A stretch of DNA of 64,000 nucleotides from Opitutales bacterium (GTDB lineage: Bacteria > Verrucomicrobiota > Verrucomicrobiia > Opitutales > Coraliomargaritaceae). Each line of letters begins with the position of its first letter. Positions within the stretch are counted from its first letter, which is position 1. Both the position numbers and the translations under genes were made by a program. The stretch spans positions 1-64,000 of the forward strand of contig JABBCA010000015.1 in the NCBI GenBank assembly GCA_018607135.1, given 5' to 3'. The notes beneath the pieces were generated by a model. That model saw only the letters and a program-made list of their open reading frames with translations. It was not told where the DNA came from and did not search any database. Below, piece by piece: positions 14,546 to 61,594 of this stretch.

Positions 14546-15109
14546 ATGTCTCGGTTGAATCATAATGGCATGGATAATCTGCGTCATGGGCGGGCGTCGG
14601 TGCCGAATGGCAGGTATTTTATTACGATTTGCACTAAAGGTAGACAGGTCGACCTTAATCAAGGTCGAGTCTTTCGGAAAGTGGTGGAGAGTCTTCGCGA
14701 AATGCATTTGAACTCTGATATCTACTTATACTGTGCAACGATAATGCCTGACCATCTGCATTTGTTGTATCGATTGGGAGAGTCACTAAAGCTTGGCCAA
14801 ATTCAGGCAAAGCTGAAATCGCAAACTCGTGAGTCGTTGAATGCTGAAGGATTTTTGTGGCAGGATAATTACTACGACCACTATCTACGTGAAGACGACG
14901 CGCTGGAAGGGTTCGCAAAGTATATCTATCTGAACCCCCATGTTAAAAGACTCATTTCACTGGATTCTGATTGGCCCTACTGGTTGTTGAATCGAGACTA
15001 TAAACCTGAATTTATTGATTTGGTTGAAAGTTGCGGGGGTGTTCCTGAGGAGTGGGTTGCGAGTGCGATGTCGGCAAATGATTTGATCGAATCGTATCGT
15101 CGCGTTTAA
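14546..15109 (+). CDS. REP-associated tyrosine transposase (RAYT, Y1_Tnp family)
   Basis: Protein of 187 residues with the N-terminal GRASVPNGRYFITIC motif, the HUH metal-binding pair His70-x-His72 (PDHLHLL), and the downstream KYIYLNPHVKRL segment holding the candidate catalytic Tyr (126 or 128). RAYTs are single-copy, single-strand-acting relatives of the IS200/IS605 transposase that recognise REP hairpins. REP copies lie immediately on both sides (14463-14522 and 15156-15182), and further copies are at 8.4 and 56.5 kb. The frame is intact. Its natural substrate is very probably the family A repeats. Confidence 0.93.
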   Translation: MSRLNHNGMDNLRHGRASVPNGRYFITICTKGRQVDLNQGRVFRKVVESLREMHLNSDIYLYCATIMPDHLHLLYRLGESLKLGQIQAKLKSQTRESLNAEGFLWQDNYYDHYLREDDALEGFAKYIYLNPHVKRLISLDSDWPYWLLNRDYKPEFIDLVESCGGVPEEWVASAMSANDLIESYRRV

Positions 15110-30960: not shown

Positions 30961-31053
30961 AAAAGAAGTTAGAATTCAGAAGCTAGAACTTAGTTTCGGA
31001 ATTCTGTGATTTGCTTCTAACTACTACCTACTACCTACTATTTTCTTTTTTTA

Positions 31054-34486: not shown

Positions 34487-34577
34487 ATCTCAGTATGTAT
34501 GAGTGCAGAGATAGGGGGTAGGCAACCTAACAGTTGATACTGAAGGTAGATGAATTCTTATACTGCGACAGTCGCGC

Positions 34578-34668
34578 TCTTAATCTTAATCTTAATCGAG
34601 TCGTGAGTATAGTAAGGACTGATGGAAGGTGGGGAAGATTACGATTAAGAGTAAGATTATGATTAAGA
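34578..34668 (-). repeat. Mini-element with TTAATC termini (non-autonomous copy)
   Basis: A 91-base element. Its left arm (34578-34598) is TTAATC repeats; its right arm (34636-34668) contains 26 bases (34643-34668) identical, in reverse, to 59938-59963, the left end of the four-helix-bundle element. The left arm matches the reverse of that element's right end (60387-60420). So both ends of the larger element are present, in reverse orientation, with the gene missing. Confidence 0.75.
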
Positions 34669-34724
34669 AACTGCGCCGACGATTCTTTTCGCCAAACCTC
34701 GCATTAGCGTAATAACTATGGCTG

Positions 34725-58291: not shown

Positions 58292-58339
58292 AAGGCGCTA
58301 GAAGATGGAGCTTCGGGCAGACGGGTCAAGTGGGAAGAG

Positions 58340-58374
58340 GTGAGGGGTGAGGGGTGAGAGGTGAGAGGTGAGAG
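58340..58374. repeat. Five tandem 7-base repeats
   Basis: Units GTGAGGG, GTGAGGG, GTGAGAG, GTGAGAG, GTGAGAG in direct order upstream of the glyS start on its minus strand. A simple tandem array near a possible promoter; its length may vary. Confidence 0.75.
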
Positions 58375-58395
58375 GCTTGGGGGATGGAGAAGCGC

Positions 58396-58420
58396 CTTAA
58401 TCGTAATCTTACTCTTAATC
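58396..58420 (+). repeat. Solo TTAATC arm, same type as the element ends
   Basis: CTTAATCGTAATCTTACTCT then TAATC. It differs by one base from the left end of the four-helix-bundle element (59939-59963). No partner arm is seen near it, so it may be a remnant. Confidence 0.6.
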
Positions 58421-59281: not shown

Positions 59282-59932
59282 ATGTCGAACGCAAGCACTA
59301 TTCGCTGTTTAATCACCGCTGGGCCGACTCGTGAGTTTATCGATCCGGTTCGTTTTATTAGTAATCCATCTACTGGAAAGATGGGTTTTGCCATTGCTGA
59401 GGCGGCCGTCGAGGCTGGCTGGACGGTGGACTTGATCGCGGGGCCGGTTTCCTTGCCGGAGCCGGATGATGTGATCCTTTACCCGGTCGTCACCGCCGAG
59501 GAGATGTATCATCAAGTGGATGCGTTGTTTGATGCCTGCGATGTGTTGATCATGACGGCTGCGGTGAGTGATTTTCGCCCAGTCACGCAGCACGCGCAAA
59601 AGGAGAAGAAGGGCGACGCTTCGATGACTATCGAGTTTGAGCGCACGATTGATATTTTGAAAACGGTCTGTGAGCGGAAGGCGCATCAGACCGTGGTCGG
59701 CTTCGCGGCAGAGACGAATGATGTGCTGGAGTATGCGAAAAAGAAACTCGAAGCGAAGAACCTGGACTGGATTGTGGCCAATCAGGTCGGCGTATCGGGT
59801 TCTGGTTTTGCGTCAGATACCAATGAAGTCGTGTTGATCGCGGCGGATGGGAGTAGCGCGAAGCTTGGTCCCACGACGAAGGCGGCGATCGCGAAGGAGC
59901 TCATACAATTAGTTACGCCTACCGCGCAGTAG
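59282..59932 (+). CDS. coaB: Phosphopantothenate-cysteine ligase (CoaB)
   Basis: About 216 residues from ATG 59282. [29 protein letters not shown] is the CoaB signature; AAVSDFRP, the FERTIDIL stretch and [11 protein letters not shown] follow in order. In many bacteria CoaB is fused to CoaC; here only the ligase half is present and no CoaC is found next to it. It condenses phosphopantothenate and cysteine using CTP. The gene stops seven bases before a TTAATC repeat begins. Confidence 0.92.
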
Positions 59933-59937
59933 TGGTT

Positions 59938-60420
59938 TCTTAATCATAATCTTACTCTTAATCCTAATCCTCCCCTGTAGGTCATGTCCGAAGTCTTCGA
60001 TCACGAAAAGCTGAAGGTCTATCAGCGCGCATTGGATTTTGTAGAATTCACAGATGCCTTGCTGTCCACTTTCCCAAAGAGCATGGCGGTGTGTGATCAG
60101 CTCGATCGAGCTTCGACTTCGATTCCGTTAAACATTGCTGGGGGGGATGGCAAATTTACGTCGAAGGATCGCTGTCGTTTCTTTGATATTGCGCGTGGCT
60201 CGGCGCTTGAGTGTGCGACCGCATTAGATGTATTGGTGCGAAAAGGAAAGTCAGAGGAGACGACTGGGACTGAAGGAAAAGAGATTTTGAGAGAAGTCGT
60301 ATCGATGCTGGTTGGTTTGATTCGAAGTCAGAAGACGGATCGCGTTTATGAAGATCAGGGTGATTATGGCTCTGGCGATTAGGGCTGGGATTAAGATTAA
60401 GAATAGGATTAAGATTAAGA
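59938..60420 (+). mobile_element. Small inverted-repeat element encoding a four-helix-bundle protein
   Basis: A 483-base block flanked by TTAATC-rich arms: the left arm at 59938-59970 and the right arm at 60387-60420, inverted. It begins five bases after coaB ends and stops four bases before the histidine kinase start, so it looks inserted. A 91-base copy at 34578-34668 keeps both ends in reverse orientation without the gene, and a solo arm lies at 58396-58420. The mechanism of movement is unknown. Confidence 0.7.
59984..60382 (+). CDS. Four-helix-bundle protein (23S rRNA IVP-like, TIGR02436)
   Basis: Protein of 132 residues, all-helical. The blocks HEKLKVYQRALDFVEFTDAL, RASTSIPLNIAGG, RFFDIARGSALECATALDV are those of the four-helix-bundle family that includes 23S rRNA intervening-sequence proteins and relatives of Avd from diversity-generating retroelements. 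Such proteins bind nucleic acid and form pentamers. The gene fills the TTAATC-flanked element almost completely, which suggests it is the element's only product. Molecular role here is not known. Confidence 0.9.
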   Translation: MSEVFDHEKLKVYQRALDFVEFTDALLSTFPKSMAVCDQLDRASTSIPLNIAGGDGKFTSKDRCRFFDIARGSALECATALDVLVRKGKSEETTGTEGKEILREVVSMLVGLIRSQKTDRVYEDQGDYGSGD

Positions 60421-60424
60421 CTTC

Positions 60425-61594
60425 ATGAAAAACACTGGATTAGACAAAATATTGGGACGGCTCGAAGAGCTTGATTCGGTAAACCTTGGTGTTCTGGTGC
60501 AACGTCTGGCGCGTGAGCGTAAGATGCAGGAGACGGTGTTTAATACCATTCAAGATGGTATCTTGGTGATCGATTCAGATGGGGTGGTGCAATATGCGAA
60601 CGACGCGGCTGCGGGTATTATTGGTCTCAAGGAAGCTGACGTTGGGGTCATGCGTCTGTGGAAGATGGTGCCAGACCTCGCGCAGTCGATGGATCGTGAG
60701 ACGGTTTCAGGGAAGCGGAAGGCCGCGCCTGTTTTGTCACGTGAGGTCGAGTTAAACTATCCAGAGCATCGCATCGTAAGGCTCTACATGGTGCCAATTG
60801 ATGCGCAGGTGGGGCACGATGATAGCGGCGGCTACGTGATCGTAATTTCGGACATCACTGAGGATAAAGTTTCGATGGAGGAAATGATTGAGAGTGAGCG
60901 CACGTCTTCGATTGTGACGCTTGCCGCGGGTGTGGCTCATGAGTTGGGCAATCCGCTGAATTCGTTGACGATCCATTTGCAATTGATCGAGCGCAAGCTG
61001 AAGAAGTTGGCACTCGCGGACGAGGGTAAGAAGCTCTCCGAGTCGCTAGAGGTTTGTCAGGGGGAGGTGAAGCGTTTGGATGGGATCATTACACATTTCC
61101 TTGAGGCGGTGCGTCCGCAGCAGCCTGAGCTGAACGAGCTGGATCTCGTTGGGCTGGTAGAAGAGGTGCTGCGTGTGCAGGAAGTGGAACTTGGAAACCG
61201 TAAGCTCGATGTGAATGTGGAGGTCGATTCTGCATTACCTGCGATTCTCGGAGATCGCGGGCAGATTAAGCAGGTCTTTTTTAATCTGATCAAAAATGCC
61301 ATGGAAGCGATGCAGGCGGGTGGGAAGTTGCGCGTGGTGACTCGCAAGGACGACGATTACGTTTACATGCAGTTTATGGATACGGGGTCGGGTATCTCGG
61401 ATGAAGACCTCTCAAAAGTCTTTCAGGCGTATTACACGACGAAGAAAGAAGGCCACGGCTTGGGGATGATGATCGTGCAGCGTATCATGCGTGAGCATGG
61501 CGGGCATATCTCATTGGAGTCGCGCAAGGATCTGGGCACGGTGATTACACTGCAGTTCCCGCAGCAGCATCGTCGGACGCGGTTATTAAAGTAA
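60425..61594 (+). CDS. PAS-domain sensor histidine kinase
   Basis: Protein of 389 residues. PAS domain about 35-150 ([19 protein letters not shown]), HisKA with phospho-His172 in [10 protein letters not shown], then HATPase with N-box [11 protein letters not shown]1 [11 protein letters not shown] and G2 [12 protein letters not shown]. No membrane helix is seen, so it senses a cytoplasmic signal. No response regulator gene is near. The ribosome-binding area is shared with the right arm of the TTAATC element, four bases away, so insertion may have altered its expression. Confidence 0.92.

Follow-up and report, generated by a model that had tools for sequence, protein, structure and literature searches.

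A gene for a four-helix-bundle protein lies between inverted hexamer arrays in the coaB/kinase gap

The window, meaning the whole stretch of 64,000 nucleotides analyzed here, lies on contig C87 of its genome (G000). Between the stop codon of coaB at 59932 and the ATG of a histidine kinase gene at 60425, the gap is filled by one gene of the S23p/IVP family (here IVP) and two inverted arrays of NTAATC hexamers. The positions of arms, gene, coaB, and kinase in the initial annotation were confirmed in the sequence. The features are as follows:

59938 to 59970, plus strand: left arm, TC followed by TTAATC ATAATC TTACTC TTAATC CTAATC, five hexamer units of the form NTA(A/C)TC
59984 to 60382, plus strand: IVP/S23p four-helix-bundle gene, 132 aa, based on the ORF, profile matches, AlphaFold2 model, and dN/dS
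60140 to 60142, plus strand: codon 53 of this gene, GGG (Gly), at a position occupied by Glu in each of the 118 other IVPs examined
60387 to 60420, minus strand: right arm, inverted, with the minus-strand reading TC followed by TTAATC TTAATC CTATTC TTAATC TTAATC

In the predicted RNA fold, the left and right arms pair and leave the IVP gene in the loop. An Rfam search of 59800-60600 returned no match. The IVP gene is the only gene between the arms, with no Pfam match at E<=0.1 besides PF05635, and no known transposase or recombinase is encoded there. The ORF matched PF05635 with 78.3 bits (cut-off, 33.8; E value, 5.9e-22) and TIGR02436 with 72.2 bits (cut-off, 24; E value, 3.6e-20), which bears out the protein family first proposed from the letters. 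The AlphaFold2 model (pLDDT 89.6) is a four-helix bundle whose best structural matches were 2GSC and 2RLD (Z 17.2 and 17.0), entries with five chains each; the S23p of X. campestris is a homopentamer according to work cited in PMC4990558. The next match was Avd of the DGR reverse-transcriptase complex (4DWL and 8UB7; Z 13.6-14.6, rmsd 1.7-1.9), the best of these (Z 14.6, rmsd 1.8 over 110 residues) being the closest match of known function. Because unrelated helical bundles reach Z 13.3, with an rmsd of about 3, the weight of the Avd match lies in its low rmsd.

Six polar residues, Q40, R43, S47, N51, E54, and E77, are 97-100% conserved across 118 IVPs, which suggests that they form a specific binding or catalytic site. 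The window IVP reads NIAGG where these 118 proteins have an invariant Glu. Since the codon sits within a run of seven G, a sequencing error at 60140-60142 is possible; since Gly replaces a residue invariant in 118 relatives, the present activity of the window IVP is doubtful, and this copy may be inactive if the Gly is real.

The coaB/kinase copy appears old and under selection

We compared the same gap in related genomes, a check proposed in the initial annotation, and found that its content varies. Gene and arms are present in five genomes (G000, G002, G010, G018, and G021), the gap is empty, at 8-9 nt, in G004 and G014, it measures 36 nt in G011, and in G001 it holds 54 nt of decayed arms and no gene; the filled and empty states at this site are thus presence and absence between divergent genomes only. 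Synonymous divergence between the gene-carrying genomes is mostly at saturation, but the arms can still be recognized, and the IVP orthologues have dN/dS values of 0.05-0.065 where measurable, indicating purifying selection. From these comparisons we conclude that the coaB/kinase copy is an old one under selection, and that some lineages have lost it or never acquired it. Because the identical site is occupied in all five genomes, the window element looks mostly vertically inherited rather than freshly inserted.

NTAATC arrays recur in the window and the genome

With one mismatch allowed, there were 15 matches to TTAATCNTAATC in the window where 0.8 would be expected, above all 100 shuffles, and its exact matches in the 3.5-Mb genome numbered 78, against 2 for a reversed-pattern control. 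The NTAATC arrays of this genome occupy roughly 40-50 sites, among them the one at 34578, and many of these sites are inverted pairs without a gene. Their arms are built as GTC-TTAATC-NTAATC-NTA(A/C)TC-TTAATC-NTAATC, commonly of five units, in most of which the first base is free; most other positions are ~95% fixed. In eight hand-paired elements, the free N positions of an element agreed between its two arms in 10 of 29 cases (expected fraction, 0.33). Because these positions match only at chance, a conserved sequence motif is favored over mere stem pairing, and a pure stem-pairing constraint was rejected for this small set, in which the N positions did not covary. This suggests that what the NTAATC arms of these eight elements preserve is a sequence motif, beyond a stem. 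Array counts were highest in genomes with an NTAATC-type IVP gene (78, 32, 26, 19, and 17), but some genomes without one contained 11-27 (21 in G001, 17 in G027, and 27 in G032). Since the arrays are not exclusive to genomes with such a gene, they may persist or spread by other means.

Array features of the window away from the coaB/kinase gap are as follows:

30964 to 31046: gene-less TAGAAGT-type heptamer hairpin, with its left array at about 30964-30992 and its right array at 31013-31046
34520 to 34700: decayed copy of a ~212-bp composite repeat with the outer inverted ends GAGACTGTCTCAAAAA
34578 to 34598, plus strand: left NTAATC array of a gene-less copy, belonging to the ~15-copy composite repeat, whose ends are decayed here
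34637 to 34668, minus strand: right NTAATC array of the same gene-less copy; hairpin z-score, -3.8
58397 to 58420, plus strand: solo NTAATC array, with no inverted partner nearby

The exact 26-base reverse complement between 59938-59963 and 34643-34668, on which the initial annotation built its case for a deleted copy of the element, is real. However, the interior and left flank of 34578-34668 are common to about 15 other places, where they form a ~212-bp repeat with NTAATC arrays inside the outer inverted ends and REP-like sequence outside them. An origin by internal deletion is therefore ruled out, since the interior and outer ends belong to this separate repeat, and by its sequence 34578-34668 is a decayed member of it. 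The composite repeat may itself be riding on its REP-like ends. At the orthologous gaps in G001 and G002, the 34578 copy is absent, with divergence too high to show its ends. The proposed autonomous/non-autonomous pattern holds to the extent that the wider family has gene-carrying and gene-less members, but not for the 34578 copy as a deletion derivative. A better gene-less relative in the window, judged by its unit, is the hairpin at 30964-31046: TAGAAGT also brackets the IVP gene at gltB/gltD of the window genome (contig C52).

Two further features were observed in the window. A solo GGTGAGA-type heptamer array at 58332-58379, upstream of the solo NTAATC array, resembles the IVP arms at loci L104 and L111 of other genomes. 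At 14546-15109 lies a RAYT (REP-associated Y1 transposase) flanked by its own REPs, of the GCGAGCAAGCTCGCACACTAC type. The REPs of this RAYT (GCGAGCAAGCTCGC) differ in sequence from the NTAATC arrays, and there were 13 Y1 hits in the window genome and none in the sister genome G002. A RAYT/REP origin of the NTAATC arrays is disfavored by this difference and by G002, which has arrays but no Y1.

IVP genes lie between inverted short arrays in many phyla

Most other IVP genes of the window genome lie between inverted arrays of other units, including TAGAAGT (at gltB/gltD), CAGG-type, GATGCGG, and GCTGAAA among others. At the level of the order, we compared the left flank with the reverse complement of the right at 39 IVP loci from eight genomes, and 36 of the 39 scored above the 99% shuffle level, against 1 of 39 in the same-strand comparison and 4% for mismatched loci. 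We also fetched 80 loci from Acidobacteria, Planctomycetes, Firmicutes, Bacteroidetes, Proteobacteria, Chloroflexi, Spirochaetes, CPR, and an archaeon, which yielded 76 usable IVP genes, with 275 other ORFs from the same contigs as controls; this set, collected with the A2 query, is biased to canonical IVPs, the wider A1 profile being too diverse for a scan of the collection. Inverted arms at score>=25 were found at 75% of the 76 IVP genes versus 2.2% of the 275 control ORFs, leaving about a quarter of the IVP loci without arms at this score, and at score>=35 the figures were 53% versus 0%. Inverted arrays thus do recur around other four-helix-bundle genes, as the initial annotation had asked of a mobile element. 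Among them, L247, a 46%-identical relative of the window IVP from a different family within the order, is flanked by a similar inverted pair of NTAATC type, and a 52%-identical relative (L246) has an NTACTC-like left array.

Of 86 armed loci, 60 had arrays of period 7, 12 of period 8, and 2 of period 6; the left arm contained YAGNNNNYAG in 39 of the 86, with the opposite orientation in 3. Because period 7 and left-arm YAGNNNNYAG prevail, the window element is an atypical member, six-base and of opposite polarity. At non-homologous sites, the unit was common to 32% of protein pairs of >60% identity versus a baseline of about 1%, and none of 1,000 Mantel permutations (0/1000) reached the observed unit-protein correlation. 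Since the unit tracks protein identity, gene and arms travel or evolve together, with units changing faster than proteins. The GATRCGR unit is confined to its own IVP gene plus one other contig end, which rules out dispersal of every unit.

Several observations on individual loci are added here. Contigs C13 and C62 of the window genome have long GATRCGG arrays as their right ends, which probably means that the assembly was interrupted within the right arm of an IVP element; arrays of this kind may generally lead contigs to break. At L186, L189, L212, and L219, strong direct repeats across the IVP gene replace or accompany the inverted arms. A CAGGTGA-array IVP element at 2001-2369 of the Anabaena sp. 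90 plasmid pANA02 (L263) sits in a type I-D CRISPR operon, where it separates cas6 from cas4.

IVP elements were located inside core operons, at coaB/kinase, gltB/gltD, atpA/atpG, accB/accC, and carA/carB, with gene names read from the neighboring sequence. One ATP synthase operon, in G048, contains two different IVP elements, at atpA/atpG (L121) and atpG/atpD (L122); these names were likewise read from the neighboring protein sequence and not from annotation. A tblastn search of 50,697 phage records with one IVP query gave no hit.

Filled and empty sites in cyanobacterial plasmids

Empty sites, which the initial annotation had proposed to seek by aligning flanks, were found by flank comparison for plasmid relatives of the element. 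Plasmid pC052_D carries a ~415-bp IVP element at a site that is empty in pC052_B, pNsp_b, and p057_H, where the sequence reads CAGGTTCTA-G-GTTATGC or a close variant. No target-site duplication was visible at the pC052_D insert, where the flanks are only 85-93% identical and the exact ends are blurred. A different IVP element is present one gene further on in pNsp_c. The elements of pC052_D and pNsp_a differ by 2 nucleotides in 414 (99.5% identical), whereas the flanking genes are ~92% identical; because 2/414 contrasts with a flank difference of about 8%, the element moved or was exchanged after the plasmids parted. In Nostoc edaphicum, an IVP element lies at nrdB/nrdA in antisense orientation to the operon, and Calothrix NIES-4105 lacks it. 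Two Calothrix brevissima plasmids (Calothrix NIES-22) carry an IVP element beside an integrase gene, at a site where Tolypothrix and Nostoc carneum have none.

At a nearby site in the same plasmid family, a gene-less element with the CAGGAGT unit is present in some plasmids and absent in others, and in two plasmids a second gene-less element is nested in the first. As comparisons of sequence go, this presence, absence, and nesting is direct evidence of non-autonomous movement. The plasmid relatives behave as a discrete unit with filled and empty sites, as expected of a transposon, and we conclude from the alignments that in the wider family IVP elements are mobile, gene and arms as one unit. 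The claim that the window holds a mobile element therefore stands for the wider family, through the filled and empty plasmid sites and the presence and absence at coaB/kinase; it does not stand as a recent insertion, the window copy being old and mostly vertical at the same site in five genomes.

A model for IVP elements and its alternatives

Taken together, these data lead us to an explanation that we hold to be probable, if only just: an IVS-like family of mobile elements in which inverted arrays of 6-8-nt units enclose the gene for a pentameric IVP protein, and this protein acts on the arms of its own element. It builds on the architecture and generality described above, the mobility in plasmids with and without the gene, the purifying selection, and the tracking of protein by unit. 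An IVP element would consist of one S23p/IVP gene between two inverted arrays, with a unit usually of 7 nt. Gene and arms would insert into intergenic gaps, often within conserved operons, without a visible target duplication, and in the transcript the arms would pair and leave the gene in a loop, like 23S rRNA IVSs. The IVP ring could then recognize its own array, in DNA or in an RNA hairpin, and would be the mobility or maintenance factor of the element, also for gene-less copies that share its arms. Several points count against this explanation. That S23p/IVP acts on the arms is something we infer, and we know of no catalytic activity for these proteins; units are not always dispersed (GATRCGR), and array counts are not exclusive to genomes with an NTAATC-type IVP; about 15 of the NTAATC sites in the window genome belong to a separate composite repeat surrounded by REP-like sequence; flank identities of 85-93% obscure the exact ends and any target duplication, and about a quarter of the many-phyla loci are armless at the threshold used. 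The S23p of Coxiella has, moreover, been argued to be unexpressed (PMC4990558). A bolder form, which we put forward tentatively and consider rather doubtful, holds that the IVP itself is the mobility enzyme of a previously unrecognized, phylum-spanning class of mobile DNA, with a new Q-R-S-N-E-E active site and a ring that reads tandem arrays of units able to differ from one element to the next, and that rRNA IVSs and several orphan heptamers are its offshoots.

The old, conserved positions in the core operons named above and the strong purifying selection on the IVP could also mean that the elements serve RNA processing in the host, the arms being an RNase III-type processing or insulating hairpin, the IVP an RNA chaperone, and mobility incidental. 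The predicted pairing of the arms with the gene in the loop and the RNase III excision of the Coxiella rRNA IVS (PMC4990558) agree with this. We nevertheless regard it as unlikely, as the elements are present or absent within genera and between closely related plasmids, insert also antisense to an operon (nrdB/nrdA), and vary in position by lineage, and the N positions are not kept paired. That the arrays are independent short repeats, made by slippage or by other transposases such as RAYTs, with IVP genes as passengers, seems quite improbable: a matching inverted array stands on both sides of most IVP genes and almost never of other genes, the unit tracks the protein, and gene and arms were inserted jointly as one block. 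G002, moreover, has 9 IVP matches and 26 array matches yet no Y1 transposase or RVT_1 hit, and the REPs of the window RAYT are of different sequence. In favor of such independence, there are more gene-less arrays than IVP genes, the composite repeat with its REP-like surroundings accounts for about 15 NTAATC sites, and RAYT genes occur commonly in several of the genomes.

The structural likeness to Avd raises the further alternative that the IVP, Avd-like, delivers a hairpin RNA to a cellular reverse transcriptase of a DGR, retron, or group II intron. The predicted RNA stem with the gene in its loop and the lack of a visible target duplication would suit such retro-mobility, as would the rank of Avd as the closest structural match of known function, but G002, G018, and G021 have no RVT_1 match and still carry the coaB/kinase element and many arrays. 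Dependence on a resident reverse transcriptase is disfavored by these three genomes, whose copies may be old and whose assemblies are 91-99% complete, and we consider this route very unlikely. Because the element is kept in G002, G018, and G021 without a reverse transcriptase and in G002 without Y1, a need for either is argued against, past use aside.

If the IVS-like mobile-element explanation is right, S23p/IVP genes, which are common and without known function, gain a testable partner in their own arms, and heptamer arrays, long reported as repeats without an origin, gain IVP elements as a candidate source. The rRNA intervening sequences would become one landing site of a general mobile element, and runs of 6-8-nt arrays beside genes annotated as "four helix bundle protein" could be interpreted as the ends of elements. 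The core operons of ATP synthase, coaB, carAB, accBC, and gltBD carry insertions whose effect on expression is now measurable. Overall, the sequence comparisons point to IVP elements as widespread, largely unrecognized mobile DNA in many bacterial phyla and an archaeon.

Comparison with known systems

IVP elements resemble REP/RAYT systems and REPINs in that short hairpin repeats would be dispersed in trans from one gene copy. They differ in that the RAYT is a Y1 transposase whose palindromes do not form tandem arrays of 6-8-nt units, and the hallmark of a Y1 transposase flanked by the same repeat is missing, G002 carrying the element without a Y1 hit. With DGR Avd, the window IVP shares the fold (Z 13.6-14.6, rmsd 1.7-1.9) at about 8% identity, but no reverse transcriptase, template, or variable repeat is adjacent to the gene, whose neighbors on C87 are coaB and the kinase; the only RVT_1 match in the window genome is on C62. 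Cyanobacterial STRR repeats were reportedly described by Mazel in 1990, and small dispersed repeats are said to have been described by Elhai in 2008. We found no published link between IVP genes and arrays in a search that placed preprints and most subscription journals outside its scope.

The TAACTGA heptamer arrays of Beggiatoaceae, Cyanobacteria, and Bacteroidetes, for which horizontal spread is suspected and a mechanism is not evident (PMC4679880), are likewise intergenic heptamers in lineages that have IVP genes, but they are mostly direct and upstream of starts. None was found in the fetched IVP loci; by analogy, they may be another case of IVP arms. The GGGAATC and GGGGA(C/T)T heptamers of Xanthomonas and Nostoc are intergenic and G4-forming, with 186 GGGAATC arrays and 70 convergent pairs in one genome (Xcc), and have been reported as generally unassociated with mobile elements, with no link to S23p (PMC4692102). 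Their likeness to IVP arms lies in the period of 7, the intergenic location, and the frequent convergent inverted pairs. In the Xanthomonadaceae genomes that we searched, GGGANT arrays lay on both sides of 14 of 30 IVP genes, and because of this bracketing the GGGAATC repeats can plausibly be seen as the arms of IVP elements and of related elements without the gene.

The closest known system is the 23S rRNA IVS, a ~430-nt sequence of sporadic distribution, named in Leptospira, Coxiella, and Brucella, in which an S23p ORF lies between stem-forming terminal inverted repeats (PMC4990558). The statement in the initial annotation that no element of this kind had been described overlooked these IVSs, whose mobility was proposed as early as 1993 according to work cited in PMC4990558. 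In Coxiella, tandem GACAGAT heptamers stand just before the S23p start (PMC4990558), and these, like the Xanthomonas GGGAATC repeats, plausibly fit as arms of IVP elements. IVSs and IVP elements share the protein family and an ORF between inverted, stem-forming ends, and the predicted RNA fold of the window element gives the same stem with an S23p ORF in the loop. IVSs, however, are located within rRNA genes and undergo excision by RNase III, whereas IVP elements lie between protein genes, in the window between coaB and the histidine kinase gene. Unlike the IVSs, IVP elements are bordered on either side by arrays whose units are exchangeable, they have relatives that lack the gene, and empty sites can be demonstrated for them.
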